Assembly (NCBI GenBank): GCA_950295325.1 | Contig: OX485806.1 | Span: 27,406,001-27,470,000 of the forward strand | DNA from: Polytrichum commune | Taxonomy: Eukaryota > Streptophyta > Polytrichopsida > Polytrichales > Polytrichaceae | DNA: 64,000 nt | Direction: 5' to 3' | In this document: piece by piece, positions 2,712-42,149 of the stretch | Numbering within the stretch: the stretch's first letter is position 1 | Layout: the number at the start of each line of letters is the position of its first letter | Translations under genes and position numbers: made by a program | The notes under the pieces: model-generated | What the model was told of the DNA's origin: nothing | Databases searched by the model: none | Seen by the model: the letters and a program-made list of their open reading frames with translations, nothing else

Positions 2712-2804
2712 GGGATTGGCTGTCAGCTGGTAGTGCATGTTTTATTCCTCACTGATTTCTCAGAACAGGTCTATGTATTGTATCGTCATCCAGCTTTCAA
2801 TCCC
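2712..2804 (-). ncRNA. U25: Box C/D snoRNA sno3, U25/snR56-like (cluster A)
   Basis: On the minus strand an extended terminal stem (GGGATTG with CAATCCC, then GCTG with CAGC) encloses box C (ATGACGA, one change from RUGAUGA), D' (CTGA), a C'-like GTGAGGA and box D (CTGA). The guide before D' contains CATAGACCTGTT, which pairs with the conserved 18S rRNA segment AACAGGTCTGTG with one G-U pair. It would direct 2'-O-methylation of the G in ACAGG, the site served by vertebrate U25 and yeast snR56. A second guide before D can pair with the 18S GGTGGTGCATG segment with one wobble. The assignment rests on boxes, stem and guide; no alignment was run. Confidence 0.8.
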
Positions 2805-2843
2805 CAATATTTTCATTTTAGATTTCGCATCTTAATGATGTAT

Positions 2844-2922
2844 GAAGCCTCAGTCGAAAGATGGTGATTAATTATACATCATGCATTTCAGATGTTTTCG
2901 GATTCTCTTCATCACCGGCTTC
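2844..2922 (-). ncRNA. Box C/D snoRNA sno2, LSU rRNA guide (cluster A)
   Basis: The minus strand reads a GAAGCC terminal stem, box C GTGATGA, D' CTGA, a C'-like ATGATGT, then box D CTGA and the closing GGCTTC. The 13 nt before box D, TCACCATCTTTCG, match perfectly the complement of the conserved LSU rRNA segment CGAAAGATGGTGA. By the five-nucleotide rule the target is the second A of CGAAAG, a site I associate with yeast 25S A817 (snR60). The D' guide (ATCCGAAAAC) has no target that I recognise. It lies 40 nt from both neighbouring snoRNAs, as expected for a processed polycistron. Confidence 0.82.
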
Positions 2923-2961
2923 GCCCATCATCAAGGTTAACAAATATCAGGTGAACATAAA

Positions 2962-3079
2962 GGCTTCAGTTTGCATTTTCGCGTCATTGAAATGCAAGGG
3001 CATACTGAGGAGGTTCTCCTTGTCAAACAAGGTCCCAGCACCACTTGCAACTGCGCCCTAGAGGTAACCATCATCAGCC
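2962..3079 (-). ncRNA. Putative box C/D snoRNA sno1, orphan (cluster A)
   Basis: The minus strand begins GGC-TGATGA and ends CTGA-AGCC, so boxes C and D sit directly inside a GGCT/AGCC terminal stem. The body of about 118 nt is longer than usual and has an internal hairpin (CCTTG with CAAGG). The same sequence recurs at 20,924 and 22,006 with boxes and stem kept while other bases vary, which argues for a functional RNA. No rRNA target was recognised, so it is an orphan guide or a different small RNA class. Confidence 0.65.
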
Positions 3080-3156
3080 ATTTCCAAAACACTTTTAACA
3101 AACCCTAAACTTCAAAGTGAAACAAAAGGACGCGACCTCCGAACATTGCCGATTGA

Positions 3157-3284
3157 GTCTGTGAACAGGACATAAGTAATGGTGAAGGGACAACCCAGCC
3201 CACGTCGCGCCTGACCGATTTGTTGTCGGCCTCGTTTACGAGGTGCAGCGTCATTACAATAGCACAAGGCATGCTCACAGCACC
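3157..3284 (-). ncRNA. Putative H/ACA-like RNA (cluster A)
   Basis: This is the upstream member of cluster A on the minus strand. A stem GGTGC/GCACC closes a hairpin with an internal loop, followed by a CTCGT/ACGAG mini-stem, an ACAACA H-box-like linker, a second structured segment and a terminal ACA close to the 3' end. The order fits hairpin-H-hairpin-ACA architecture, but I cannot fold it rigorously. The close relative at 20,738 has a better-paired first stem. A structured leader rather than a true H/ACA snoRNA is possible. Confidence 0.45.
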
Positions 3285-3629
3285 AGATACCAGAGGCCTA
3301 AACGGTATGTATCACCTCATTACAAGCCTATCATCAGCTGCTACATGATATGAATTAGCCACAACATCAAGGTAACTCAAGGAAGAACCATACACAGAGC
3401 GAAAGTCCTAAAGAGATATCATACTACGAAGGTTTCAGAGTTTAAGTACTCTAGAAGAGCTGCGAAGGAGACGAACTCTGCAGGCGCTCTCCAAACCCTA
3501 AACGCAGTCGATAGGATGTAACCCTAACGACTCACATCCGTATGTTTTAGGATGTAATCATACATTCATCCTCACAGCTGTGACGTTTTAGGAGTTACAT
3601 AGGAAGTTGAGAACTTCAAGTCACATTGA
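3285..3629 (-). promoter_or_regulatory. Upstream region of snoRNA cluster A with telo-box
   Basis: Upstream of cluster A in minus orientation. A telo-box core (AAACCCTAAA on the plus strand, about 3,493-3,502) and a second ACCCTAA near 3,519 occur 200-240 nt from the first RNA. Telo-boxes are typical of plant snoRNA and ribosomal-protein promoters. No clear TATA box was identified, so the start site is undefined. Confidence 0.4.
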
Positions 3630-17275: not shown

Positions 17276-17680
17276 ATTGGTGGCTGCTTGTTCAAAGCAC
17301 CTCTCCAAGTAGCCCAATTCCATGTTTGTACCGGGTTACCTTTCAGAGCTTGCCAGGGTGAGGCTCTATCCTGTTGTGGGCGTGTTAGTGCTGCAGTTCA
17401 TGCGCATGCCTCCCACTCTCGTAGTTTGGAATGCAGCATATGCGGCTTCTCAAGCAGTACTGAGTGTCCTGTGAACCTGGAGCAAGTACCAAATTGTCTG
17501 TACATGCAATGCAAAGCAGTCCATATGTGCCGTATTCTGTTCGGCACCTTGCTAGCCGGTTGAAGGAGGTTCCACAGGCAGGTTTATATGTGCTTGTGAA
17601 GGACACACAGCAACATGCTTAAACCAACGGTTGTTCATTCTGTTGAAGGACCTCTCCAAGTAGCCTGATTCCTTTGGGAG
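17276..17680 (+). pseudogene. Tandem duplicate of the MIP2 3' end
   Basis: Sequence from about 17,330 to 17,620 repeats the last ~290 nt of exon 11 (from GAGGCTCTATCCTGTTG to the final GAAGGAC) with substitutions and small indels that break the frame. The flanking CACCTCTCCAAGTAGCC of the 3' UTR also occurs twice, near 17,300 and 17,650, so the duplicated unit of roughly 350 bp spans coding end and UTR. No intact reading frame remains. Confidence 0.85.
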
Positions 17681-19269
17681 ATCAATCTGCTATGGCGTCC
17701 ATGAATTTCCTGTCAATTTTTAAAATTTTCAAGTCCACATGCAGCTCTGAGGTGGTCAGTCGCTGAGCATTGTAATTTGCAAGAGTGTGTGTACAGAAGG
17801 CAGTAGTTGATTTCAAAATGAGTGAAGGGTAGATCATTTCCGAGTGTGCGGACTTCCTGTGATTTATCACAGATTGTGCATTACAATGCTGTAAGATATT
17901 TGTCATCTGTTTGCATTTGACCACCTTATCAGGACTGGAAAGAACAATTATCTTCAATCTTTTGTACATGTTGGTGCAGACCCACCATTGCTTTAAAATT
18001 GGAGTACTTGTGTTTCTGTGCATTCTCTCCTTGAGTTGGTGATACCTTCAATATCATATCAATGTTTCTAAACCTGGTGTGGTGTCCCAGCTGAACATGC
18101 TATGCCATGGCCTGGCATGCCTTCAAGTCTCATGAACTACAAATATAGAGGCAATTAAATGACTGATTGGCAGGTGACAACTAAACATGCCAATTCCCAT
18201 AGTACTTTGAATTCTTTGTGGAAGTTGCAGATGTTGCTGTATTGGTGAGTATACAAACCAAGCAGACAATTGGCAGTGTTGTTTTAATTGGACATAAATC
18301 CGTTCTGCATTGCCCTTCTTTTTTAACATGTGTCTAAGTCATAAATATTGTTCCAATGGTACCAAGCCCAATTACATATAGTTACAAACACAGTAAAAGT
18401 TGTATGTGCATTCCTTAAATAATCAGGACCACGAAATGAAATTTAAGTATGCATTGGGTCAACATTATATTTCTAGTGTTAACTACACTAAGTCTTGTAT
18501 TTGGTGTCACCAATTCTATTAGTCTTGCTCAATACTAATACTAATTGTAGACTGCCTGTGTGGTGTCACTGACGTTACAATGACGTAAAATACCACATAC
18601 AAGTAAATACAATATTTAATGTAGTGTGGCCCATGTTAATTATTTCCATGCTAATTTTCCACCAACAATAATACTAATAGGACTATGCTAATTTTCGTTC
18701 AAATTTCAAGATCATTGACAATGCCATGGTGATCGATGATGAATAGTGTGATTCACGCTAATTTAGATTTATAGTGCACTGATACGAAGTTGGAGGCTAG
18801 GATCCCCCAATTTGTAAGAAATGCAATTGAAGTAAACATATGTGTGCTAGAAATCATATTAGGATTTGTGTTAGGGTTTTCATATCGTGTTTTATTAAAA
18901 ATATTGTTGATTCCATTCAAATGAAGCAAAAATACACCACGCATTCACTCAATCACCCCAAGCCAAGCTTATAAGGGAGACCAAGAGGAAGCAGTAAATT
19001 ACTAAATCGAATTGAGTGACACCACTTTATCTACGAGCTAGCTATCAATGAACCAAAAGCCACAACCAACTTCCCCACAAATCAATCTTCAAGTAATCAA
19101 ATGAAAAGATGTATACACATAAATCATGAAAAATTGCATGTGTTTATCACAACCTTGCTTCAATGCACACCTTTCCATTCACATAACAATTAGCATTTCA
19201 AGTGAACTTGTCCTCACTACAAGTGCACATGACACGTTTTGCATCCCATGACTTATCAAAGTGCTCAAG
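17681..19269. repeat. Intergenic DNA with a MITE fragment (family S5)
   Basis: No gene recognised. Around 18,489-18,575 (ggtgtcaccaattctattag...) there is a reverse-oriented end fragment of the S5 MITE family seen whole at 19,270. The rest is unassigned AT-rich sequence. Confidence 0.5.
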
Positions 19270-19668
19270 ATATTATCTTTAGTATTGTATGTAGTGTCAT
19301 ATGATATTTCATGTCATGTGGTGACTTTTCTGATGACACTTCTTATGAATAAGTTTACAAGTAGTGTCATGGATGATAAAAAAAAAGGAATCTATGCCAA
19401 TTATTGAAACAAAAATTTGGTGTATTCTGCATCCTAACACTGTTGCAATGAAATATTGTCATGGATGATTAAAATTTGGATGAAAACACACTTAGTAAGT
19501 GATAGTTACTTGCAACATTGTAAATCTATAGAGCCAAATTTTGTTACAAAGAATGACAAATAGTGTCAGGTTTACATTTAGCATTGGTGACACTATGTGA
19601 GCAAATTACAAATGGTATTGAGCAAGACACATAAAATTGGTGACACTAGCTACAATACTTAGTGTAGT
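19270..19668. mobile_element. MITE, family S5
   Basis: Non-coding element of about 400 bp sharing ordered blocks with 48,521-48,857 and 55,953-56,350: gatgacacttcttatgaata, tgtcatggatgat (twice), taagtga.agt.a.ttgcaa, and ttggtgacact near the right end. Ends carry degenerate TAGTGTAGT-type inverted repeats. The three-copy alignment defines the family. Confidence 0.65.
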
Positions 19669-19958
19669 GAGTCGCAATGGAAAGCTACATACGATTCCAA
19701 GCAAAGTGGTTACATGGCTCAAGTTGCAAAATTGTGATGTATTAGTGCAAAGGTGAGGTCCACTAGAACAATATTTGCTTTCTTATATGTGTGCACACAA
19801 TCACCTTTACTTTAGATGCATCAAAGTGTTGCAGTAAGTAATCCACTTGGGAGTCATTTCCCTTGCTCGCTTCAAACAACTCTCCACACGTCAATTCAAG
19901 TTCGCTTGCAAGTGGTGCTTCCTCCGTTTTAAAAGGAGGAGGTTCTTGAGAGATCTTA

Positions 19959-20353
19959 GGGCTGGTTCACACAGGGTCCCCAATCCCAAGTCACTTGAGG
20001 TCAATACGTGCAACCTTAGTTGTTGAAAGGATGGAGTTGGGACTTACCACGTCACATGAGGTCCCAAGTCCGAAGTCCCATGTATGACATGGATACCTAC
20101 ATGACAAACACTTTTGGAAGGTGAGACTCAAGACTTCTGTTGAGGATTGGGTCGAACAAAAAACTAGACCCAACTCTCAACGCAAGTCCCGCAAACATTT
20201 ATGCATAAAATAATCAAAATGTGACTTTAATGATAATGAAGCATATTTGAACGAATGCTTGAGGCTTAAAAGTTGGGACTTTGCCTCCATATTGGGACTT
20301 GCTAAGTTAACATGAGTGGGACTTGGGACTTGGAGTCCCATGTGAGCCGGCCC
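19959..20353. mobile_element. Tourist-like MITE, family T2
   Basis: Terminal inverted repeats GGGCTGGTTCACACAGG and CCCATGTGAGCCGGCCC are flanked by direct TTA repeats (19,956-19,958 and 20,354-20,356), the 3-bp target duplication of PIF/Harbinger (Tourist) elements. It is 395 bp with no coding capacity. A longer, interrupted relative is at 3,630-4,717. Confidence 0.85.
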
Positions 20354-20356
20354 TTA

Positions 20357-20401
20357 GAATGCAATGGTCACGGGCCTTCAGTCTCGTGTGTGTAGTGGCC
20401 C
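20357..20401. mobile_element. Terminal fragment of MITE family H
   Basis: About 45 nt, starting atgcaatggtcacgggcc and ending CTCGTGTGTGTAGTGGCCC, match one end of the family H elements at 44,405 and 59,340. Only this terminus is present, directly beside the T2 element and ending in a TTA. Confidence 0.75.
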
Positions 20402-20737
20402 TTAGGGTTTACACTTTGAAGGGCGCCTCCCATGTTCAGATCTCCTTCAAACGGCTCTTTCTCATGCGCACTATATAGGTCTCATACACCCTCCAGGTTT
20501 CTCATCTCTCTCTCTTCTAGTCGCGCTCTGTGTGGTAGTTTGTCTGGACTCATTGAGTTGTAGGTTTCTCTTGTGCTTGTATGATGTGTAAGACAATTAG
20601 GCATGTTGCTGAGCCGGGTCCTCTTTTGATATGTTTGGTGCTTGCGTTTTTAGGTTCAGGGTTTACGGTTTAGGGTTTCGGATTATGTTAATCCGTGTTG
20701 TCTTGTTTTCTTGTGAGGAGTCTGGCCTCTGGTATCT
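20402..20737 (+). promoter_or_regulatory. Putative promoter and leader of snoRNA cluster B
   Basis: A telo-box TTAGGGTTT (20,402-20,410) is followed 60 nt later by CTATATAG (about 20,471), then a CT-rich leader and further TTTAGGGTTT motifs (about 20,670) before the first RNA at 20,738. Telo-box plus TATA is the usual plant snoRNA/ribosomal-protein promoter layout. The first telo-box abuts the family H MITE terminus. Confidence 0.5.
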
Positions 20738-20866
20738 GGTGCTGTGAGCATGCCTTGTGCTATTGTAATGACGCAGCACCTCGTAAACGAGGCCGATAAC
20801 AATTTGGTCAGGCGCGACGTGGGCTGGGTCGTCCCTTCACCATTACTTTTTGTCCTGTGCACAGAA
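20738..20866 (+). ncRNA. Putative H/ACA-like RNA (cluster B)
   Basis: A 7-bp stem GGTGCTG (20,738-20,744) with CAGCACC (20,774-20,780) closes a hairpin with an inner AGCA/TGCT helix and an unpaired pocket. Then come a CTCG/CGAG mini-stem, an ATAACA H-box-like motif (ANANNA), a second structured region and an ACAGAA terminus. It is homologous to 3,157-3,284. H/ACA RNAs guide pseudouridylation; no target was deduced. Confidence 0.5.
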
Positions 20867-20923
20867 TGCTTGGAGTTGCAGTTAGGGTATTAGTGTGGGT
20901 TTCCTAGTTTTGATGTGTAACAT

Positions 20924-21041
20924 GGCTGATGATGGTTACCTCTAGGGCGCAGTTGCAGGCGGTGCTGGGACCTTGTTTGACAAGGAGAACCTCCCCAGTA
21001 TGCCCCTGCATTTCTATGACGCGAAATTGTATACTGAGGCC
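20924..21041 (+). ncRNA. Putative box C/D snoRNA sno1, orphan (cluster B)
   Basis: Box C TGATGA lies immediately after the 5' GGC stem and box D CTGA immediately before GGCC at the 3' end. The internal CCTTG/CAAGG hairpin and the ATGACGCGAAA block before box D are shared with the copies at 2,962 and 22,006. Guide target unknown. Confidence 0.65.
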
Positions 21042-21075
21042 TTTTGCATAACGCAAGTTCTAGTTTTGTGGGGAT

Positions 21076-21163
21076 AAGAAGGTGATGAGGAGAAATTGTC
21101 GCCCCAGTCCTATGCGAGTACTTGTGCTCTATGAGGATTGACTCTTTCAAATTCTGATTCTAC
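21076..21163 (+). ncRNA. Box C/D snoRNA sno4 (cluster B)
   Basis: Box C GTGATGA and box D CTGA are enclosed by AGAA/TTCT; a C'-like ATGAGGA is internal. A central block, GTCGCCCCAGTC, is invariant in all three copies (here, 31,014 and 31,635) and can pair with the conserved LSU rRNA domain V segment GACTGGGGCGGT (10 Watson-Crick and 2 G-U pairs). The D' box is degenerate, so the exact target base is uncertain. Confidence 0.62.
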
Positions 21164-21313
21164 TGTTGTATCAGTGAGGATTTAAGGGAAGTGATGATGC
21201 ATTCCGCGACGTCCGAACGTATTTATACGTATGTGGATTTGCGAAACATGATTTGCACGTCAGTCTGATCCCTTTAGATGTGGGGAATTGAATACGTGTA
21301 CGGGGAACCAGTG
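21164..21313. other. Spacer of snoRNA cluster B
   Basis: About 150 nt between sno4 and sno2. The part with gcgacgtccgaacgtatttatacgtatgtgg is also conserved in the 31,550-31,620 array, so it is part of the duplicated unit. No extra box pair is convincing here. Confidence 0.45.
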
Positions 21314-21393
21314 AAAGCCGGTGATGAAGAAAAAATCCGAAAACTTCTGAAATCTGTGATGTGTAATAATCACCATCTTTCGACTGAGGCTTT
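21314..21393 (+). ncRNA. Box C/D snoRNA sno2, LSU rRNA guide (cluster B)
   Basis: Terminal stem AAAGCC/GGCTTT, box C GGTGATGA, D' CTGA after ATCCGAAAACTT, C'-like GTGATGT and box D CTGA. TCACCATCTTTCG before box D is a perfect 13-nt antisense to the conserved LSU rRNA motif CGAAAGATGGTGA. All boxes are canonical, making this the best-formed copy. Confidence 0.88.
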
Positions 21394-21425
21394 GATCTGG
21401 AAGTAGGTTGTATGTCAGGTTCTTA

Positions 21426-21513
21426 GAGAAGGCCGGATGGCGATATACTACATAGACCTGTTCTGAGAAATCAATGAGGAACAGAACATGCACTACCAAC
21501 TGACGGCCTTCTC
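21426..21513 (+). ncRNA. U25: Box C/D snoRNA sno3, U25/snR56-like (cluster B)
   Basis: A perfect 10-bp terminal stem (GAGAAGGCCG with CGGCCTTCTC) surrounds a weak box C (ATGGCGA), D' CTGA, a C'-like ATGAGGA and box D CTGA. The D' guide CATAGACCTGTT is antisense to 18S AACAGGTCTGTG, as in U25. The non-canonical box C is the one doubtful element; the copies at 2,712 and 31,282 have ATGACGA instead. Confidence 0.8.
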
Positions 21514-22005
21514 AATACGAACTACTTTAATCATGATATATATTAGCGTCCAATACTAAACCGCGGTATAGTGTCACCAACACTAAATGTTAACCTAAAT
21601 CCTAAACACTGTTTGACATTCCTATGGTTTGGGATCATAGGGTTACAGTGGTGCGATTACTGTCACTTTCCAAGTTCTTTTCATCCAATTTCCAATCATC
21701 CATGGCTATTTCATCACCAGTTTCTGACAAGAGAAGATAGGGTTTTGGCCAATGGATGAACTCACGAAATACCATTCTCAATGTAATTTTTCTCTAACCG
21801 GAGACGAATTCGACTTTTAATGCAGGTTTCATTGCGAATCTTTGGACAGATTCAAGCAATGGGCGATTCTTTACTTACAATTATTACTTGGATGTATGTT
21901 CAAGGTGTTCAAATGCTCTTTGGGTTATTGCTACATCGATGTCTATTGGCTGAATCTTATCATGGTGTGGTTAACTAAAACGGATGTATTTTAGTTACAG
22001 TATTG

Positions 22006-22123
22006 GCTGATGATGGTTACCTCTAGGGCGCAGTTACAGGTGGAGCTGGGACCTTTGTTTGATAAGGAGAACCTCCTCAGTATGCCCCTGTATTTCCATG
22101 ACGCGAAAATGTAGACTGAAGCC
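22006..22123 (+). ncRNA. Putative box C/D snoRNA sno1, orphan (cluster C)
   Basis: Third copy with an intact GGC-TGATGA start and CTGA-AGCC end. It begins a compact array in which sno1, a decayed sno2 and a decayed sno3 follow within 350 nt. sno4 and the H/ACA-like RNA are absent. Confidence 0.6.
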
Positions 22124-22139
22124 TCTACATAGATGTAGA

Positions 22140-22210
22140 CCTTTATGACTCAATCCGAAAACGTCTGGAATGATTGATGTGTAATTAATCCCTATCTTTC
22201 AACTGGGATT
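22140..22210 (+). pseudogene. Decayed sno2 copy (cluster C)
   Basis: Matches sno2 through ATCCGAAAACGTCTGG and the CTATCTTTCAACTGG region, but box C is missing, D' has become CTGG, the 25S-directed guide has changes and box D reads CTGG. It is probably not a functional guide RNA. Confidence 0.7.
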
Positions 22211-22250
22211 TGACAAATCATTAAGAGGTGAAAATAATATGAAATATTAC

Positions 22251-22350
22251 GGGGATTGAAAGCTGGATGGCGATATAATATGTGAATGTGATACATTTTT
22301 GAGAACTCAGTGAGGAATGACACACGCATTACCAACTGACAGCCAATACC
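22251..22350 (+). pseudogene. Decayed sno3 copy (cluster C)
   Basis: Keeps the terminal stem, ATGGCGA and the CATTACCAACTGA 3' end, but the U25-type guide before D' has diverged and D' reads TTGA. The 18S guide is therefore lost, though a box D guide could still act. Confidence 0.6.
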
Positions 22351-23173
22351 TCGTAGTTGAATTTTGTGACTAATTACATTTGTTAAAAATTCGAGATAAT
22401 GGTTAAGGGAGGCACCATGCAAGCTGACGTCCTTTCTAATTCAAACTGTCACTTGTGAACTTGTATACTCGGATCGCTGTGAAGTGGTTCTAATTATACT
22501 GGCACTTTCATCCTTGGAATATGATTGAAGTTTAGAATCCGAGTATGAAATGGATGACCATCTTCGCAGGGAAATGCTGTCATTCTCCGAAGCATGGAAA
22601 CGTGGTTATACGCCTGTGCTATATTCTCGATGATTTTGGTCATTGCATAAAATTTTCTTACTCGAGAAGATGATTAACTGCATGAAATCTCGAGAAGATA
22701 TTTCACTGCATGGCGCTGGCATGGAAAACAAAATGAAAATCCAAATGTCCACTACTGCGAAGTTTCCATTTTAATAGACGGTCAGTTTGAGATCTGTTCC
22801 GTGTAGAGAGAAAATCTTTGCCAGAGCGATGTAGCCTTCAAGTGGAAGTACCAGCACAGATGCACAATATCTATTGGAGCAACTGCAGATGTCAAGCAGG
22901 TCATTCTTTCAATCCTACAAAGCGAATGCAAGAGTTTCGGGAAATGGTTTCGAAATGCAACAACCGTTTTGGCACATATACAGAATCGCTCATCAAAGAA
23001 ATGGAGAAATTGTATATCACAAACAGAAACAAACCTCAAGCGCCTATACATATGGCGCTGTATTTACAACATACCAAACCTGAGTCCCGGGCAGTCTGAA
23101 TCGACTGCAAATCCTATCTTACAACCTTTCAAACTAAAAGTGTTCTCATAGACCCGCCTTTACTAACCCTGAT
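22351..23173. other. Region after cluster C with small inverted and direct repeats
   Basis: No gene recognised. A 9-bp inverted pair TACTCGGAT/ATCCGAGTA (22,466-22,474 and 22,537-22,545) encloses a further hairpin, and a 28-nt unit starting CTCGAGAAGAT is tandemly repeated at 22,661-22,715. Short open frames near 22,820-23,150 overlap in several frames and look fortuitous. Confidence 0.45.
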
Positions 23174-23538
23174 CTACACTCTCCTCCTTCGCCCCACTCC
23201 GGAGAGGTTGGCTTTGATGCGCCGGAGGTAGAAGAGGGGGTTTATGTAGTTAAACCTGGCCCTGGACTTAGCCTTCTGGTGGCCCACCGGATGCGTGATT
23301 GCGTTCTTCTTCCAGCGCAACCTGTTCATAGGATTGTATCTGCAACAAAACATACAGCAACGCGTCAAACACTTGACTCAGCATCACAGAAGTGCGGCGT
23401 AATTCACAAATGCAAGCGTAACTTCGATGACAGCATAAATCGATAACTCATTACACACCTGTTCATGCGCCACCTCGCAGTTGTACGAGGGTGCGTTGCG
23501 GCCATAACATCGGCATCGGCCCGGCGCAAAGCGTCCAT
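23174..23538 (-). CDS. Small basic conserved protein, two exons (copy 1)
   Basis: Exons 23538-23459 and 23339-23174 on the minus strand join in phase through a GT-AG intron of 119 nt to give 81 residues, from MDALRRADADVMAATHPR to a GVGRRRRV C terminus. It is strongly Arg/Lys rich, with a conserved core THPVGHQKAKSRARFNYINP. I do not recognise the family. A paralogue at 26,406 has the same intron position and phase and about 80% identity, and a third, truncated copy is at 32,777, so it is a real, selected gene. A G-box CACGTG in an inverted context lies about 390 nt upstream (23,925). It faces the plus-strand snoRNA clusters tail to tail. Confidence 0.82.
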
Positions 23539-24110
23539 GACTCGAACCTTGTTGCTACCTTGAAACTCTGTGTGAGATCTCTCACACCACAACTAATAAT
23601 TGCGCAGGAAATTCCACCGAACGCTGCAGAACCGAAACTAGATGTAAAAATACGACACCGAAGGTAGCTGGAATCCAAAACACGATGGGCGAAGATGGGA
23701 TTTAACAAGAGAAGATGTGAGAAGAGGATGCGATGAGAGCAGGATGATTCTGTGCTGCAGTTCCGCGGCCTACCTTATACATAGTGTATCACAGCCTGGC
23801 TGAAATGTATACGCGCAGTACATTTGTGTCCCATCCGTATGTACGGTACGTCCACATTGAGTGGCGGTTGCTAGCTGGGAAGGGGGAGGGTCTTGGGACA
23901 GTCGACGCGTGGCATGTGACGTGGCACGTGCCACCTGTCAATCCTGCCTGCCTTCGGAGGGACTGGATGAGTTGCATCGGAGGGTTGGGATTTACTTTCC
24001 TCAAGATGCTCCGTCCTTTGTCCCTAAGGAGTCATCATTCTCCCCAATCTGAATCAACAGTGGAAATAAGGTCACTAATAATATTCACAATGAAAAGGTC
24101 CTCCTACTAA
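23539..24110 (-). promoter_or_regulatory. Upstream region of the small basic gene, copy 1
   Basis: Contains the palindromic GGCACGTGCC (G-box at 23,925-23,930), nearby ACGTGG and ACGCGTGG motifs and GACAGGTGG, which also occurs in the upstream modules of the two related copies. Other open frames here lack support. Confidence 0.4.
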
Positions 24111-26040
24111 GGAAGGTAGGAGCGACTTAAACCAAGGCAACACCCAAAACCAACACCCTTGAAATCATGCATAGGAGTACATGTTGATTTGAGAATGTTC
24201 ATCATGTGAACATGAAGCCCCCTACCGGTTTTGGGTGTCAACGTAATTTTTTTTATCTCAATATGAGGGGGGATAAGAACTACAATACACATGGTCTTCT
24301 TCTTCTCTTTCTACATGGGAGTGTTTTGGGGTTCATATGGATGCCACATGTAAGTCAAATACCTTAACTTCTCAGTTTATGGTGCTCCTACCTTAGTATG
24401 GGTTTCATTTGAAGTTATTCATTGATGTAACTATTTATTGAGAATGTTGTTTTCATGAAGTAAGCTATTTCATGTTCCTTGTCTTGCATGATACGTTGAT
24501 TATCCCAAGTAGCGAGGGAGAGCTAATAGTGCATGTGGAAAATTGTGTGAAGATGATACTAAGTTTCTTGACACTAGGGAATTAGTGCCGCCAAAAGATC
24601 TAGAAAGCATCGTTCATCTCAACACTATTCACCAACAAACACATGTCTTGTGTTTGGTGTGTTTTATATGTACGCCGTAAATATGTTAAAAAAAGAAACA
24701 AATAGCAATAACCAATGAGAGCAATGGGCAATGAAGGTTATGGAAGCAAGGAATGAGGGGATAGTTACATGTGGATCGAAGAAGTTGGTAAAAATGATTA
24801 GAAGCACAATTTCGATTTGTTAATCATCTTGGACTCTTCTTTCGTGTTTCGTATCCTACGAGAACTGGGTGTAGAGGTAGAAGTGCATGTTTTGGGTCTC
24901 CTTACGCTACATGGCTACATGATCAACCTTCAAAGCTCAGAGAAAAGGTCATCGAATGATTGGCCTTTGAACATCGTGCGAATGCATTATTTGGGCACCA
25001 AGGATTGTGAGGCAAGACTCGCAAGACCAAAGCACTTCTACTAGACCAATTTTTTTGGGCCAAAATTGGATAGCCAAGTGTTTGTTATGAAAACAAGATG
25101 GTGTTAGGTATTTGGATGAGACGGGTCCCTAATAAAATACAAGTGTAAAAGGAATAATTAACAATAGTTTACTTGCAAGCGGACGTTTTAGTTCTACACG
25201 CACTTCTCCTATGACATCAAACATGTCATAAATGCAAGATGATTAGCAAGTCCAAATTGAGGTTGTAGCCAATGCCATTTCCCTCATAGTTGTTGGAGCC
25301 AACATGAAGGAGAGGGGGATTCATCACACAAGGGTGTTTCTCTCATTCATTGAACATAAAAGCTCCAAAATAGTGTGCAACCCGGAGGTTATTATCTGAG
25401 TTGATGTGGCACCAAAATTACCTTCAAAGGTTCCGAATTAGTCTGGTCCAAGTCATTTGAAAAGGGTCAGCTACAAACCTACGGGGGTCAAGTTTTGATG
25501 TTGGATGGATGAGAGGTACACTTTTGTATGCGATAATGCCCTCTATCCTCACATTAATATCATTGCATCTTCTCCTTTTTAGAAAGAAAATTTTCTTTTT
25601 CTTAAACTATCATATGAGTCCTCCCAATGATGAGAGATTGAACCTGGAATGGTCCAATCTCTCTCAAACATATGTCTTTTTGGTGTCCATTCTAAGATCC
25701 GCACCAAACCACACATCACTCAAATGTAGGTATTTTGATTAAGATGAGTTAGTGAATTAGGCCCGCTTATCTTAAGGTTTTTATGAACAACTATAATTAG
25801 TGGATAGAGCTTGGAAGATTCAAATGTTGCACTTTACAACCCACCCACATACACTACACCCAATCCAGTGGCCATCACTCCCCAAAATAAAGCTAAAAGT
25901 GGCTCCTGCTGGTAGGAGCCGTTCGCCTAGTCACCCACACCAATAAGTGTGGGCATTCTATAATAGGATTGGTCAAAGAGTAGGTGCCTATGCCGTGGTT
26001 GCACCTGTATCCACACCGCTATCGTACTTAAAATAAGTGA
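24111..26040. other. Intergenic DNA, no gene seen
   Basis: No recognisable gene. Two adjacent perfect 7-bp hairpins stand out: GGCTCCT/AGGAGCC at 25,901-25,920 and CCCACAC/GTGTGGG at 25,934-25,953. Around 25,200-25,300 there is a degenerate dispersed repeat (gatgattagcaagtccaaattg) also near 29,320 and 60,210. Confidence 0.5.
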
Positions 26041-26170
26041 CGTGGGCCCGCTAACTTCAGGCGGCCGGTACAAGCTTTTACAAAGTACACGTGGCAACGG
26101 CCCTATGGATCTTTGATTAGGGAATCCACCTGTCGGTGCCACCTCAGCTTGCCACGTAGCTTCTCCTCCG
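26041..26170 (+). promoter_or_regulatory. G-box promoter module of the small basic gene, copy 2
   Basis: TGGGCC (26,043), CACGTGGCA (26,088) and GGTGCCACCTCAGC...CCACGTAG (to about 26,160) form a module whose counterpart, in the same orientation relative to the gene, sits at 33,110-33,200 upstream of the truncated copy. Conservation of an upstream block between duplicates suggests a shared promoter. Confidence 0.55.
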
Positions 26171-26405
26171 GGAGAGCTCTTCAACCCAGCTGCCTCGACC
26201 GATAAAGCTCTCCAGCCCTCACTCTTGACCAGCATCCCATCCCCGTTCTTATTATTACATACAAATCATCAGTTTCCAGTTCCAGCTTCCGTTACATTTG
26301 TTCAGTTTGGATCATCTCAATATTACTTATTAATCGCTGCTTATAGCTTCTGGATTAAGGGTTAGCAAGGTTTAGATTGTTGGGTTTTGAATTCATAGTC
26401 TCAAA

Positions 26406-26962
26406 ATGGACGCGTTGAGACGCGCTGATGCCGATATCAATGCAGCTGCACATCCTCGAGCTACGGCTAGGTGGCGCATGAACAGGTACTCAACGAATGC
26501 ATCGCACTGGAAAAGTTTATTTTGAGTTGAATTACAGCATTCAGAGGTTCCTTGGGTGTTTTATTGGGAAGACTATAGAAAAGGGAGGATTCGGCGTCTT
26601 CTCTTTGCGTCTGTCGTCGTTGGCAAGGAGACAGATCCTTCTCTCTTTATCTCTGAAATGACTCAATGTGTACAATGTTGCTCATGAGTCCTTGGATATG
26701 TATCTATCATGTTTTTTTTTGGGTCACCTTTGACGAGCATTGCAAATTCTAAGTTGTGAGGTCGCTCAATTTCTTAGTTCAATGTCGTTGCAGGCGCAAC
26801 CCTTTGGCTAGACTACGGTGGCAGAAGAACAAGATGACCCACCCAGTTGGCTACCAGAAGGCCAAGACAAGGGCAAGGTTGAATTACATTAACCCCTTGT
26901 TCTACCTACGCCGCATCAAGAACAACCTTACAGGGGTTGGTCGAAGACGGAGGGCTATTTAA
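26406..26962 (+). CDS. Small basic conserved protein, two exons (copy 2)
   Basis: Exons 26406-26485 and 26794-26962 join through a GT-AG intron of 308 nt at the same position and phase as the minus-strand copy at 23,174, giving 82 residues (MDALRRADADINAAAHPR ... GVGRRRRAI). The C-terminal two thirds are highly basic, and the core HPVGYQKAKTRARLNYINP is nearly invariant among the three copies. The Arg-rich tail suggests a nucleic-acid-binding, nuclear/nucleolar or organellar protein, but that is inference only. Family not recognised. Confidence 0.85.
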
Positions 26963-27976
26963 GGCTTTGACGCACATCCCCAAACAACAAATAGAGTTCC
27001 TGGTTAATTATTGAGGTACCAGGGTACCGAAATAGCGCATGCCAACGTGCTAGTCAATTGATAGCTTGTAAATATATTAGGATCGTCATCAAAATTATGT
27101 GCAATGCCACCTGTGATGGTTAGTAATGCACAAACTGTAAAGAATCCGAGTTATAACGCAGTACAACATCTTTCGGATTGATCAACAAGTTTTTCTGCTT
27201 GTGCAATATCATTTTCAAAGAGAGGTCAAGTGCCAATGTTCCATCTGCAGTGTAACAGATTTGAAACAGGTAAAGTGCACCCATCAGCAATCTGCTAGAG
27301 CAAGACTCCATCCGATACCTAGCATGGTCACAACAGAAATAATACTGCTTGTATGCTGATTTGCATTGAGTAACCATTCGAGAACCAGCACTTGCACACA
27401 CAATGGTGTCCACAATGAAATCTAATTCCAGATGCAGACTGTATTACACCAAATAAAGCTCAACAGAGGCTGCATTTGTATTATAACCCATTTGTAATAC
27501 GTATAGGATGTAACATCCCGGCCGGGGATTCAATGTTTACTGAAGTGAAAAGAAATGCGCCAAACTTTAAGGTTTAAAGTAAAGGTAAAAGTAGAAGTAC
27601 AATTAAAGTAAAAACAGTAAAAGTCAAACCAAAGCATAAACAGAACCTTCAGAGAGTGAAGTAAAAGTAAAGTTGGAAACCTAGATACTATATAATGGCG
27701 ACCATTGTTATATGTTGGTAAACCTTTTGTATTTTCCTGAACAGGATCCCATATCATTAACCCACCAATATCATTGCTCAAAACGTTGAGAGAAATCGAC
27801 GCCCTCATTGTAATTCGTATCAAGACCCAGCGTTTTTTGATTACCTGGTAATTTGAAGACTAAACATCATCGTGTTTGCCATTAATAAAAAAAAGGCAGG
27901 GGTTGTCGGTTTGAAGTTTGTCACAAAGTTCAGAATCATCACTGCAACAGCCAACGATCGACACAAAATAACACAA
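26963..27976. other. 3' flank of the small gene and upstream region of NIP
   Basis: No recognisable gene or promoter motif beyond AT-rich sequence. Between about 27,560 and 27,640 there is a run of aaagtaaa-type short repeats. Upstream in-frame codons before the proposed NIP ATG are not supported by homology. Confidence 0.45.
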
Positions 27977-29829
27977 ATGGCAGACATCCGAATTCAGATG
28001 CCGGCCGTGCCCTCCCGCTCCTCCCTCGGGAACAAAGTGGGAAGATTATCTAGTACCCATGATGACCCAATTGAGCCGAATTCTTCAGCAGATGATCACC
28101 CCGCAGGGTCGTCGTACGAGACCCGAAGACCCTGGATCTCTCCGCTGAAGAAGGCAATGGCCGAGCTGATCAGCACGTTCATCCTGGTGTTCGCGGGGTG
28201 CGGGGCCATCATGGTGGACGCACTGCGGGGCGGGGTGGTCACGCATGTTGGTGTTGCCCTCACGTTCGGGCTCGTGGTGGCGGCCATGATTTACACCGTG
28301 GGCCACATCTCGGGAGCTCACATGAACCCCGCGGTCACCATCGCGTCCGCGGTCACCATCGCGTCCGCGGTCACCAAGCACCTCCCGTGGCACCAGGTGC
28401 CTATGTATGTGGCGGCCCAGTGCGCAGGGGGGGTCGCCGCATCGTTCGTGCTCAGCTTGATCTTGCCTCCGGCGGCCTTCTTGGGCGCGACGTTGCCGTC
28501 GGGAAGCGACGTGCAGTCGCTGGTGCTGGAGATCCTCATCACCTTCATTCTCATGTTCGTCGTCTCCGCAGTCACCACCGACACACAATCGGTACGTGAT
28601 CATCGCCTCCTCCTTATACCCTTTTCTCATCGAAACTTGATTAAAAGCTACCACTAAGGTAGATGACTTTTGAATGGTCGCTTTTTCCGACGAGCCCACT
28701 TGTCCTAGGATATGAAGCACGCGGTTAGTGCGTGCAAGGTGGTAATAAGCAAATTCAAGTCGAGACCGTCGCCACTTTCCTCACAATTCCTGGAGCCAGC
28801 CCTGAAGAACATCTTCGTCATTATCAAAGTGAAGGTTCTCGTGCTCATCAAATTGGTCATATACTGTAGGTCCCCCACCCAAGACGTGAGTTTAAGAAAG
28901 GTTGGACTACATGTTAAGAAATCGTTGATTGTTCGAGCGAGGCTCAGATGGTCAACGTAATCGGGGGATCTATACGATCGTTCAAGAAGAAACTCAAAAA
29001 AATCTTCACTTTCGTCATGAATGTAAAGATATTCATACGAGCCATGTAATCATATTCATGAAAGCATTTGGTGTGAAAACCATTTGGTGACAAGCGCCAT
29101 TTGAAAACCCCATTTGGAAACCCCCATTTGAAACCTCAGTCCCCCCTTGAGTAGGTTCATTGGACTAATGTGTTGTTTTGGTTTGCTTTGCAGCACGGCA
29201 AATTGGCAGGAATCGCCGTTGGCTCCACGATTGCACTAAATGTCATGATGGCCAAGTAAGTTCCATAACCGTAACTTGCATTTGGACAAACATTCGGATC
29301 AATGCGTGCATGTGCTGTACGAGATGATTAGCAACTCCAAATTGTGCCCGTAGTCATTTGCCTCATACTTCTTGGAACTCATATGAATATCTTAATTCAT
29401 TATCAAAGTGAAGACTCTCGTAATGATTAAGTGCTCAAATAGATCCTAGAAATCATGTTGACTATTGAACTTAGAATGGAAAACCGGAGGATGTCAACAT
29501 GTAACCGGTTGGACATGCAAACACTAGGATGTCAACCAGTTATGTCCAAAAATCTCCCCGATCACTGATCTACATTAAGTAACTCTTCAATCATTGAGTA
29601 TTGGCATGTTTGCACCCGTGGCAGGCCAATTTCCGGAGCATCAATGAACCCCGCAAGGTCGATCGGCCCAGCAATGGTGTCCCTGAACTTCCATGCCCTG
29701 TGGGTGTATATTGTCGGTCCAATTCTGGGTGCTGCAGCCGGAGCATTAAGCTACAGTCTCATCCGCCTCCCAGAGGAAGAAGGCTCCGCCTGTGACCAAA
29801 AACCTGCCACCAGACAGCCCGGTTGCTGA
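27977..29829 (+). CDS. NIP: NIP-type aquaporin (NOD26-like intrinsic protein)
   Basis: Exons 27977-28591, 29194-29255 and 29625-29829 join in phase to 293 residues. The start MADIRIQM is preferred because the upstream in-frame extension is not NIP-like. Transmembrane helices follow a hydrophilic N terminus from PLKKAMAELISTFILVFAGC; both pore motifs are present, SGAHMNPAVT and SGASMNPARS. NIPs conduct water, glycerol and metalloids such as boric, silicic or arsenous acid through membranes. The H2 filter position looks like Phe (ALTFGLVV), which differs from the Trp of NIP-I types. The segment after the first NPA contains TIASAV twice, encoded by a perfect 18-nt direct repeat. Lys replaces the usual Gly just before PISGAS. 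Confidence 0.92.
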
Positions 29830-30855: not shown

Positions 30856-31013
30856 AAGAGATTTGTAGTACAAAAACATTTCGGAACACATCGTGCAACA
30901 ATTAATAACAAATAACGTGAAACATGTAACGAGAAAAATAGATTGATTGGAGGGAAATACACTCAATGGAGGATTTCTTGCTTAAAACAACACAGAATAC
31001 AGAATAAAAGAGT

Positions 31014-31101
31014 AGAATCAGGATTTGAAAGAGTCGATCCTCATGGAGCACACAGCACTCGCGTAGGACTGGGGCGACAATTTCTTCTCATCACTTTTCT
31101 T
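31014..31101 (-). ncRNA. Box C/D snoRNA sno4 (locus D, downstream copy)
   Basis: Minus strand: box C GTGATGA, central GTCGCCCCAGTC block, ATGAGGA C'-like box and box D CTGA closing with a short stem. Close to the 21,076 copy. It is followed on the same strand by nothing recognisable and preceded by a truncated sno1 at about 31,136-31,185. Confidence 0.62.
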
Positions 31102-31135
31102 TGATCCAAACACCTACAAAAATGCAAGATAAAAG

Positions 31136-31185
31136 GCCTCAAATCTACAGTGTCGCGTCATGGAAATGCAGGGGCATGTTGAAAT
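31136..31185 (-). pseudogene. Truncated sno1 fragment (locus D)
   Basis: Only the 3' third of sno1 (CATGCCCCTGCATTTCCATGACGCGA...) is present on the minus strand. Box C and the 5' stem are gone. Confidence 0.6.
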
Positions 31186-31281
31186 CTTAAATGTCCCGAC
31201 CAAAGAATTGAAGACCAACACACCATCGAGGTAAGGGTTTAGGGTTTAAGGGTTTTCCTACTGAGAGTATTTCCTATTGAC

Positions 31282-31367
31282 AAGGCCGTCAGTTGGTAGT
31301 GCGTGTTTAGTTCCTCACTGATTTGAGTCTCAGAACAGGTCTATGTACTATATCGTCATTCGGTCTT
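31282..31367 (-). ncRNA. U25: Box C/D snoRNA sno3, U25/snR56-like (locus D)
   Basis: Minus strand: stem AAGACCG with CGGCCTT, box C ATGACGA, D' CTGA after CATAGACCTGTT, C'-like GTGAGGA, box D CTGA after GCACTACCAA. The 18S guide is identical to the copies at 2,712 and 21,426. Confidence 0.8.
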
Positions 31368-31402
31368 CTCCGATCACATAGAACCACAACCTACTACCCA
31401 TC

Positions 31403-31481
31403 AAAGCCTCAGTCGAAAGATGGTGATTATTGCACATCACAAATATCAGATGTTTTCGGATACTTACTTCATCACCGGCTT
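31403..31481 (-). ncRNA. Box C/D snoRNA sno2, LSU rRNA guide (locus D)
   Basis: Minus strand: box C GTGATGA, ATCCGAAAACAT then D' CTGA, C'-like GTGATGT, TCACCATCTTTCG then box D CTGA and GGCTTT. Boxes and the 13-nt LSU guide are intact. Confidence 0.85.
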
Positions 31482-31634
31482 AGATTGAGTTTCCGAACAC
31501 CGCATTCCTTGATCCCACATACACAGGGATCAGATTGACTTGAAAATCATGTTTTGCAAATCCACATACGTATAAATACATTTGGACGTCGCGGAATGTA
31601 TCGTCACTTCCCTTGAATCCTCTCTATTAACAGT

Positions 31635-31721
31635 AAAATCAGAATTTTAAAGAATCAATCCTCATGGAGGACAAGCGCTCGCGTCGGACTGGGGCGACAA
31701 TTTCTCCTCGTCATCTTTTTA
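31635..31721 (-). ncRNA. Box C/D snoRNA sno4 (locus D, upstream copy)
   Basis: Minus strand: box C ATGACGA, GTCGCCCCAGTC block, ATGAGGA and box D CTGA. It is more diverged than the 31,014 copy but keeps the candidate guide exactly. Confidence 0.58.
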
Positions 31722-31753
31722 AACCCAAACAATAAAAAATAATGTAAGACAAA

Positions 31754-31871
31754 GGCCTCGATCTACAGCTTCGCGTCATAGAAAATGTATCAGCCTACTG
31801 AGGAGGTTTCCCTGTCAAACAATGTCCCAACACTGCTTGCAACTGCGCCCTAGAGGTGACCATCCCGAGCC
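31754..31871 (-). pseudogene. Decayed sno1 copy (locus D)
   Basis: Full-length sno1 similarity on the minus strand, but box C TGATGA has become CGGGAT and box D CTGA has become TCGA, so a functional box C/D RNA is not expected. Confidence 0.7.
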
Positions 31872-31923
31872 AAGCGACGAATCAACACTCAAACCCTAAA
31901 CAGAACTCCAGCCTCGTGACATT

Positions 31924-31970
31924 CTGTAGACAGGACAAATGGGCGAAGGGACTAACCAGCCCACTTCTCT
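31924..31970 (-). pseudogene. Remnant of the H/ACA-like RNA (locus D)
   Basis: Only the 3' part (GTGGGCTGGTTAGTCCCTTC...CCTGTCTACAGAA on the minus strand) matches the H/ACA-like RNAs at 3,157 and 20,738. Its 5' hairpin is replaced by the U2-like sequence immediately upstream. Confidence 0.5.
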
Positions 31971-31982
31971 ATAAGTCTCGAT

Positions 31983-32028
31983 GAACAGATACTACACTTG
32001 ATCTCAGCCATAAGGCCGAAAAAGTTAT
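31983..32028 (-). pseudogene. 5' end of a U2 snRNA gene fused to the snoRNA array
   Basis: The minus strand from 32,028 closely follows the conserved U2 5' end: TCGGCCTTATGGCTGAGATC, then the branch-site recognition region AAGTGTAGTATCTGTTC, then diverges. About 46 nt with few differences are kept; the rest of U2 is absent, so it cannot be a functional U2 RNA. It lies at the start of the locus D array in the same orientation. Confidence 0.8.
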
Positions 32029-32051
32029 CCTTTAGCAGGATCAACTACCCC

Positions 32052-32101
32052 ATATATAGTTGCCAAGTCCTCACCGATCCAGACACCGAAGATATGGGAC
32101 C
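32052..32101 (-). promoter_or_regulatory. Plant snRNA-type promoter (USE plus TATA)
   Basis: On the minus strand GGTCCCATATC (32,101-32,091) resembles the plant upstream sequence element RTCCCACATCG, and TATATA (32,059-32,052) follows about 31 nt later, with the U2-like start about 24 nt further on. This USE-TATA distance is typical of RNA polymerase II snRNA genes in plants. Confidence 0.7.
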
Positions 32102-32776
32102 TGCGATTTGACTGTATGCCCTCCCCGATGAATCAGAGTAGCTCAGCCATTAATCTACTTCAGAAATGTATCTCTCCTTGATCATTAATGAACAGTGTGA
32201 TTGAGTTCCACCTGGTGGAACCTTTGTCTTCCACTTGTCAAACCTAAACACCGCTACCGATATGGAAACGAATGTGATGATTTTCGGATGTTTTGACAAA
32301 GTGTAAGCTATGCACCCATTATGCAGTATCAGGAAACTATGACACCCGTAGAGGAATCATAAAAACAAGACATGGTTTTCTAACGGCAAGCATTAGTCAG
32401 GACACGTTGTCCAACAAGTCATCAATTTGAAAGTCAGAAGAATCTGATTTAAAAGAATCCCTTCAATTTCTTCACAATAATGTATAGTACAATTGTGGAC
32501 TGCTAATGTGTCATGCCAACCAACATAGTAGCTGGCAATGCACATCCTCTGCAAATACACACAAGATCAAGTGAATTACCTTTCTAGGATATGCACGGTG
32601 TTGCCTGATGATCAGGAATTCAGAAGCTATTAACAGGCAGTATAACTGCCACAGCACGAATTCTGCTTTCAATGTGGACCTAACATGTACAAATCTCTCA
32701 TAGTAGTGCATTTGTGGAATATAGAGCCCTTCAAATGTCGAAGATTGATTCACAGCATGCCTGCTGAGCTCCTCCT
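32102..32776. other. Upstream of the U2-like promoter
   Basis: No gene recognised. At about 32,295-32,360 (minus strand) lies the second copy of the possible sno5 element, containing GTCATAGTTTCCTGATACTG. The rest is unassigned. Confidence 0.4.
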
Positions 32777-32914
32777 TTATATGGCCCTCCGCCTTCGGCC
32801 GACACCTGTGAGGTTGTTCTTGATGCGGCGGATGTAGAAGAGAGGGTTAATGTAGTTGAACCTTGCCCTGGTCTTGGCCTTCTGGTAACCCACTGGGTGA
32901 GTCATTTTGTTCTC
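32777..32914 (-). pseudogene. 5'-truncated copy of the small basic gene
   Basis: The minus strand reads NKMTHPVGYQKAKTRARFNY through GVGRRRRAI and a stop, nearly identical to exon 2 of the 26,406 gene, but similarity stops abruptly at about 32,914 inside exon 2 and no exon 1 is found upstream. The conserved G-box module survives at 33,110-33,200. A deletion or replacement removed exon 1 and the intron. Confidence 0.8.
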
Positions 32915-41216: not shown

Positions 41217-42149
41217 TGTCAATGCTGAAGCTGGGTGTTGCTGATTCCTGAACAACCTCCTCTGCTTGTTCCCATCCTGAAGAAGATGACCTCTCAAGGT
41301 CTCCTCCATGTCCCCAGACATCCTGTATCCATGCAGCCCCACCCCCCCCCCCCCCTCCCCCTTCCTCGCAGCAAGCAATACAACCCTGGGTTAAACCCTC
41401 TGGGAAGACGAAAATGTTTGCAGGAAGCTTAACCCATCCGCATTTGCATCAGCACGTCATCACTACAGTTGTAACTGCTTCTACAGCTTCCAAATAGATA
41501 TAGATGGTACCACAGGCTTAGTTTATTAAAATGCAGAAATTGCTTCTGAGTTGATGTTGGTGTCCGTGACTCCGTAATGCTTGAATGTGCACATGGCGTA
41601 GTACCATGTCAGCAGCCCTCTCGAGGACGACGACATGATCGCCTCCTGCAAGCTCATCGAGAAGATGAGGTGTAAGGTGGTGTCGTCGTTCAAGCTTCAA
41701 GCTTTCAACCACATTGCCATTGTCACAGTCCGAGTAGCACAAGTTGAAGCTCCAATTGGTCACAACTGGTCACATTATCATCGTGGTTGTTGGTGTCTTC
41801 AGCGCTTCATCCTCATCCTCCTCCTCGTCCTCCTCCCAGGACAGGAAGTCCCCAACCTACACACCGTGCCCATGGTGAACCCAAACCACTCTGTCTATCT
41901 GTCTGTCTGTCTGTCTGTCTACTGCCACAAGCACAAGGCAAGGCAAGGTTGCCCTTTCAGTTTGCACCACCGGAGACCAAAGCTTGTTCCGGAAGTGAGA
42001 TCTTCAAGAGTCAAAACAACACAATGGGGTGTGGTGGTTTACTTGTGCGCCGCCTGGAACAAATGTCGCCCTAACCCTGTCGAAGGCATCCGAGCATGGC
42101 AATGCGGGCATCAAGTGTGCGTGTTTGCATCCCACATGTGTGAAGGCAT

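Follow-up and report, generated by a model that had tools for sequence, protein, structure and literature searches.

Mixed H/ACA and C/D snoRNA arrays in Polytrichum commune and their recurrent linkage to U2 snRNA genes

Genes for snRNAs and genes for snoRNAs are commonly treated as two distinct classes, each with promoters of its own. In plants, snoRNA clusters with mixed C/D and H/ACA content and with paralogous copies are well described (PMC5122169, PMC8351944, PMC7464842; these and the other sources are cited here for excerpts of their text), and the polycistronic snoRNA genes of plants typically have promoters with telo-box and Site II elements (excerpts of PMC4660826). The Arabidopsis HID2 clusters comprise U31a/b, snoR4a/b, U33a/b, U51a/b and snoR5a/b, and methylation at 25S G2620, G3292 and A816 falls in the hid2 mutant (excerpts of PMC8053127); for G2620, no change was found in an earlier report, as cited in the excerpted PMC8351944. 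Clusters of snRNA genes with other snRNA genes are also known from Arabidopsis, where U1 and U4 were proposed to have duplicated together (excerpts of PMC545797).

Here we describe the snoRNA genes in a stretch of 64,000 nucleotides of the Polytrichum commune genome, hereafter the window, together with their relatives across the assembly. Judged from the sequence comparisons below, they are probably mixed H/ACA and C/D plant arrays transcribed from promoters of their own, which would have descended from a U2-linked cassette and would duplicate as neighbouring units.

The snoRNA arrays of the window

A sequence-only reading had proposed four related arrays in the window, and Rfam and BLAST searches recovered all of them to within a few tens of bases of the proposed positions. 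The ordered snoRNA set described for array 1 is present at 20722-21512 (+), although it consists of six genes (H/ACA, CD1, U31b, Z122, Z196 and U33) rather than five, U31b and Z122 being separate. An H/ACA gene does lie at 20,738, where it had been placed, but an outer stem (GGCCUC/GAGGCC) had been missed, hence the gene starts near 20722. The features of array 1 and its promoter-side flank are:

20403..20410, + strand: telo-box TAGGGTTT, 319 nt upstream of the array 1 H/ACA
20472..20477, + strand: TATATA, putative Pol II promoter, 250 nt upstream of the array 1 H/ACA, aligned with the spacers of sister copies
20722..20866, + strand: H/ACA snoRNA, snoR5/F1/F2-like, with its H box (AUAACA) at 20796 and an ACA close to the 3′ end
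20923..21042, + strand: long C/D snoRNA (CD1) with an internal hairpin, weakly Z278-like
21076..21163, + strand: U31b C/D snoRNA; Rfam 56.1 bits, E 2.5e-8 at 21078-21160, above gathering
21182..21276, + strand: Z122 C/D snoRNA; Rfam 50.7 bits, E 1e-4 at 21183-21275, above gathering
21312..21396, + strand: Z196/R39/R59-family C/D snoRNA; Rfam Z196 43.8 bits, below the gathering score of 55
21428..21512, + strand: U33 (SNORD33/Z195-like) C/D snoRNA; SNORD33 32.9 bits, below the gathering score of 44

Rfam gathering scores are reached in the window by two of the six families, U31b and Z122, and the other four score below. The snoF1_F2/snoR5a model matches the array 1 H/ACA at 26.0 bits (E 0.0048), not reaching the gathering score of 60; of the expected two-hairpin fold, hairpin 1 with its pocket, the H box and the ACA were recognised. 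The Z278 model aligns with CD1 over its full length at 20.8 bits (E 0.065), below the gathering score of 36, and with one further CD1 copy elsewhere in the genome at 22.9 bits; in three other array loci searched with Rfam, no Z278 match was obtained up to E 1. Boxes C and D are exact in the array 1 copies of U31b, Z122 and Z196, which have terminal stems of 4-7 bp, and the boxes of CD1 are exact as well. The array 1 U33 has an exact box D, a terminal stem of 9 bp and a box C that appears weakened by eye (ATGGCGA).

With the telo-box motif defined as in the excerpted PMC4660826, both a telo-box and a TATA element lie upstream of array 1, and array 2 has a telo-box with no TATA nearby; no Site II element was found within 350 nt upstream of either array. 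Some plant snoRNA clusters are intronic (excerpts of PMC4660826), and the snoRNAs of the window could in principle reside inside a protein host gene. This is very improbable, since the region around array 1, from 17276 to 27871, has no ORF of at least 180 aa (an exon below this length would escape the search) and telo-boxes stand upstream of arrays 1 and 2. Protein-coding genes in the window include an aquaporin gene at 27872-28657 (+; Pfam MIP) and a gene for an LRR receptor kinase-like protein at 39048-41378 (-).

Array 2 occupies 2718-3298 (-) and contains H/ACA, CD1, Z196 and U33, without U31b and Z122:

3493..3500, - strand: telo-box, 202 nt upstream of the array 2 H/ACA
3158..3298, - strand: H/ACA snoRNA, 94% identity to the array 1 H/ACA
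2961..3080, - strand: CD1, boxes retained
2845..2921, - strand: Z196, boxes retained
2718..2798, - strand: U33, found by BLAST with the array 1 gene

Array 3 lies at 22004-22344 (+) and contains CD1, a Z196 remnant and U33:

22004..22124, + strand: CD1, boxes retained
22152..22213, + strand: Z196 remnant, box C gone and box D CTGG
22258..22344, + strand: U33, 71% identical, D′ guide altered

Array 4, at 31282-32028 (-), is made of a U2 5′ fragment, half an H/ACA gene and all five C/D genes, and an extra partial copy at 31012-31177 (-) behind it carries the 3′ end of CD1 and U31b. A double partial version on the minus strand had been described before and was found, its U2 fragment having gone unnamed:

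32029..32118, - strand: homology to the U2 promoter flank of the linked U2 at C4:26009478
31983..32028, - strand: first 46 nt of U2 snRNA (positions 1-46), 91%; remainder of U2 absent
31920..31967, - strand: H/ACA 3′ half, adjoining the U2 fragment
31753..31872, - strand: CD1, boxes C and D both mutated
31633..31720, - strand: U31b, found by BLAST with the array 1 gene
31525..31614, - strand: Z122, three guide changes
31400..31481, - strand: Z196, boxes and guide retained
31282..31368, - strand: U33, found by BLAST with the array 1 gene
31134..31177, - strand: further CD1 copy, 3′ end only, found by BLAST
31012..31097, - strand: further U31b copy, boxes and guide retained; Rfam 44.6 bits at 31015-31099, above gathering

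The U2-flank homology of array 4 amounts to 75% over a 137-bp match that includes the U2 5′ end, and weaker pieces reach 32674; at arrays 1-3 of the window, BLAST detected no U2. The U2 5′ end beside half an H/ACA gene in array 4 is probably a deletion scar, and the arrays of the window are members of a larger, genome-wide family. The extra partial copy is preceded, at a distance of about 60 nt, by a telomere-like sequence, AAACCCTAAACCC, at 31235-31247 (-). Beside arrays, both in the window (23181-23343, 26790-26961 and 32778-32913) and at C4:26.01 Mb, there is a recurring repeat of some 140-170 bp with 75-88% identity; its copy near 32.9 kb contains a 42-residue ORF, recognised by eye, that had no Pfam or PDB match.

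Copy states ranging from intact to dead, as claimed earlier, were borne out by array 4, where both CD1 boxes are mutated, and by array 3, where Z196 lacks box C. Another reading is that most copies in the window are pseudogene remains of a snoRNA family spread by a repeat, the functional members of which lie elsewhere. In favor of this, boxes are mutated in arrays 3 and 4, and three dispersed segments of 95-97% identity (C3:31.85, C6:21.39 and C6:1.92 Mb), which share a left boundary, bear H/ACA and C/D pieces. Nevertheless, array 1 has exact boxes in CD1, U31b, Z122 and Z196 and an exact box D in U33, and it retains its guides and a promoter-like flank, which makes such an origin quite unlikely. 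The ORFs downstream in the three dispersed segments include a cysteine-rich stretch that looks RING-like by eye. A transposon was considered as a possible carrier; no terminal inverted repeat was found in the sequence read of these segments, the right ends of which may lie outside it.

rRNA guides and conservation among copies

Three array 1 genes contain four uninterrupted antisense elements of 12-14 bp, which end 0-1 nt before box D or D′. Targets were read on the rDNA of contig C22, on the assumption that it equals plant rRNA at the target sites. On this rDNA, the box D guide of Z122 pairs over 14 bp with 25S CTGACGTGCAAATC and that of Z196 over 13 bp with 25S CGAAAGATGGTGA, and the D and D′ guides of U33 each pair over 12 bp, with one G-U, with 18S TGGTGGTGCATG and 18S AACAGGTCTGTG, respectively. 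The first pocket of the H/ACA snoRNA, the 3′ strand of which starts 15 nt before the H box, is complementary to 18S CGA-U-C-AGAUACC, placing a candidate target U within 18S CGAUCAGAUACC; the pocket fits a single site within some 4.1 kb of rDNA, and 8 of 2000 shuffled pockets had any match. We take this 18S site to be the place of yeast snR31. No convincing rRNA target was found for CD1 on the readable C22 rDNA.

The 19.9-kb contig C22 carries rDNA unlike that of plants, with an 18S that we take to be animal-like, and is probably an assembly contaminant. For the rRNA of the plant itself, sequence-pattern searches of the assembly gave no match, and a search with the 5.8S model gave matches on C22 and in a fragment on C5. 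This fragment (C5 ~7937780-7938540), presumably plant-like, holds the 18S 3′ end, ITS, 5.8S and a short 25S piece and lies inside other sequence.

Conservation was measured on alignments of 16-28 copies per gene, from which BLAST hits covering less than 55% of the gene were omitted; copies too near the end of a retrieved stretch were also left out of the conservation and stem alignments, and the RNAalifold analysis additionally dropped identical rows and mostly-gap columns. The copies are mutually related, so that the conservation and covariation figures lean high. Mean pairwise identity is 0.76-0.95 in the C/D guides and 0.63-0.78 in the remainder of each RNA, and falls to 0.18-0.30 in aligned 40-nt spacers downstream of three genes, gaps being scored as differences. 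In four of the five C/D genes, box D shows stronger conservation than box C. Among the H/ACA copies, identity is 0.60 in the H box and 0.70 in the ACA versus 0.77 in the rest of the gene, and the H box of the array 1 type is exact in 1 of 25 copies and within one mismatch in 13. The earlier proposal that boxes are kept while spacers differ thus applies to the guides, to box D in those four C/D genes and to the diverged spacers, but not to the less conserved H box and ACA.

Conserved terminal stems had likewise been proposed. The two sides of the U33 stem form 5.29 bp with their own partners versus 4.40 bp with the partners of other copies, a fit reached by none of 2000 permutations, and own-partner pairing of CD1 was matched by 14 of 2000 permutations, supporting the proposal for these two genes. 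Clear own-partner preference was lacking in Z122, Z196 and U31, where 118, 659 and 1892 of 2000 permutations were as good. A covariance analysis by RNAalifold, the check suggested earlier, revealed two-sided change in the H/ACA snoRNA at five pairs (23 cells, where shuffling gave 7 on average and never 23 or more in 300 trials), although its consensus is partly doubtful and the stems of its second half are distrusted. Two-sided change was also found in Z122 (8 cells versus 2.2) and U33 (6 versus 2.2), with 1 cell in Z196 and none among the consensus pairs of U31 and CD1. The designation as a plant snoRNA array held, given the plant Rfam families, the rRNA antisense elements beside box D or D′, the telo-boxes of arrays 1 and 2 and guides that are more conserved than spacers.

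U2-linked copies across the genome

A DNA search of the genome with array 1 returned 78 matches, and a search with the H/ACA gene alone returned 25, on chromosomes C3, C4, C5 and C6, all of which were scored. Rfam searches of the array loci placed a U2 snRNA ahead of many arrays: 13 of the 25 H/ACA copies are preceded by a same-strand U2 at a distance of 190-560 nt, which is 407-560 nt in 12 of these 13, and in one further copy U2 lies 2243 nt upstream. U2 is absent from the flank read in the other 11 of 25, indicating that the arrays do not need U2. U2 sequence likewise precedes two lone U33 copies, at C4:3184597 and C4:38742978, by about 0.5 kb. A full U2 covariance match was obtained for the linked genes at C4:26009478, C4:26075751, C4:26079860, C4:26113796, C4:26152304 and C6:33385585; for the remaining 8 of the 14 cassettes, 65 N stand in front of a U2 that can be read in its 3′ part only, and we infer that these eight carry whole U2 genes. 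At C3:40996953-41000852, two snoRNA arrays form an inverted repeat with arms of about 1109 bp, 99.3% identical and about 1.7 kb apart, which could represent recent duplication, conversion or an assembly artefact.

Two genome searches for U2 gave at least 46 and at least 40 places, of which 8 are shared, for a total of about 78 or more, and the downstream flank was read for part of these places. In 30 stretches behind other U2 genes, Rfam gave no snoRNA that reached gathering, and BLAST with the six genes gave no match, a weak negative because several snoRNAs here score below gathering. When one linked U2 was used as the query, a snoRNA match stood downstream in 9 of the 10 best places listed, and the remaining one stands in tandem with a linked U2, about 1.2 kb ahead of it.

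Across the 14 cassettes, which are located on chromosomes C4, C5 and C6, the distances among U2 genes correlate with those among H/ACA genes (Mantel r 0.67, a value reached in 2 of 5000 permutations). Between the C4 and the C5/C6 groups, U2 differs by 14-24% and H/ACA by 12-31%, and the U2-H/ACA spacers align within each group. This correlated divergence fits joint duplication of one ancestral cassette. As the cassettes are related, the counts of linkage do not represent independent events. The fit is imperfect: by U2 distance the five C4 copies group together (0.00-0.14), but by H/ACA distance two of them, at C4:26.010 and 26.079 Mb, are for the most part closer to C5/C6 (0.12-0.22) than to the remaining three on C4 (0.17-0.20), a discordance that calls for conversion or rearrangement in addition. 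The linked copies, with their shared spacing, orientation and correlated divergence, probably descend from an ancestral cassette that would have consisted of a U2 snRNA gene, a spacer of about 0.5 kb with a snoRNA promoter, the H/ACA gene and a C/D array.

Of the 14 cassettes, 10 have a TATA element some 30 nt ahead of U2, the four without it all being on C4. The Arabidopsis-type USE pattern occurs in none of 27 U2 flanks, and a TCCC(A/T)TA element was seen by eye near -70 in most of them. Downstream, most U2 genes shown (13 linked and 14 unlinked) have, by eye, a CCC..GGG element and an A-rich tail. Since this 3′ flank is common to linked and unlinked genes, the 3′ ends of U2 are probably formed as usual. 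Of the 13 linked copies, 10 have a telo-box between U2 and H/ACA and 3 lack one, and only 6 of 24 copies have a Site II element in the 350 nt upstream. The TATA and usual 3′ flank of U2, together with the telo-box in the spacer, favor separate starts for U2 and the snoRNAs.

An alternative is that cassette and transcript coincide, with Pol II from the U2 promoter reading past the 3′ signal and the snoRNAs being cut from the extended transcript as a sn-snoRNA polycistron. The constant order and orientation, the spacing of 407-560 nt in 12 of 13 close copies and the correlated divergence of U2 and H/ACA would be expected from such a unit. However, linked U2 genes mostly retain the 3′ flank type of unlinked ones, 10 of 13 spacers contain a telo-box of their own, and arrays 1 and 2 of the window have telo-boxes without U2, and we therefore regard the single transcript as unlikely. 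The broader idea that U2 and an array of rRNA-modification snoRNAs form one inherited, co-expressed module, possibly a U2-snoRNA polycistron, seems rather doubtful; if true, such a module would couple splicing-RNA supply to ribosome biogenesis in this plant lineage.

Under the preferred reading of separate starts, U2 would be transcribed from its own promoter, and U2 and the snoRNAs would be separately initiated neighbours that duplicate together. As the families, guides and motifs suggest, Pol II would start each intact array from its own telo-box/TATA-type promoter, the array precursor would be cut into single snoRNAs, and the released snoRNAs could guide pseudouridylation and 2′-O-methylation of rRNA.

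Comparison with described snoRNA and snRNA clusters

The Polytrichum array resembles the HID2 clusters in being a mixed array with U31, U33 and a snoR5-family H/ACA gene, shared by family name, and in that each has one C/D snoRNA without a known rRNA target, snoR4 in HID2 and CD1 here (excerpts of PMC8053127). Unlike HID2, it also has Z122 and Z196, and the excerpted account of HID2 mentions no U2 neighbour (PMC8053127). Tandem snoRNAs behind a telo-box/TATA-type flank are shared with plant polycistronic snoRNA genes in general (excerpts of PMC4660826), from which the Polytrichum copies differ in the rarity of Site II (6 of 24) and in the U2 gene ahead of 13 of 25 H/ACA copies.

With the Arabidopsis snRNA clusters the cassettes share the linkage of small-RNA genes up to a few hundred nucleotides apart, but both partners are snRNAs there, and the word snoRNA is absent from the main text of PMC545797. 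The U3-U5 linkage of Euglena is similar in that a snoRNA gene is repeatedly linked to an snRNA gene, and different in that it is convergent, involves U3 and occurs in a protist (excerpts of PMC2784804). Among the matches listed in the open-access literature, older subscription papers being outside this scope, there was no report of plant U2-snoRNA linkage, and the one match listed for "U2-snoRNA" was a trypanosome paper. A recurrent U2-snoRNA cassette makes selection on co-location, through shared chromatin, read-through or joint dosage, testable. In comparison with these described systems, the snoRNA arrays of Polytrichum are of an ordinary, known kind, and their U2-linked setting is the new and unusual part.
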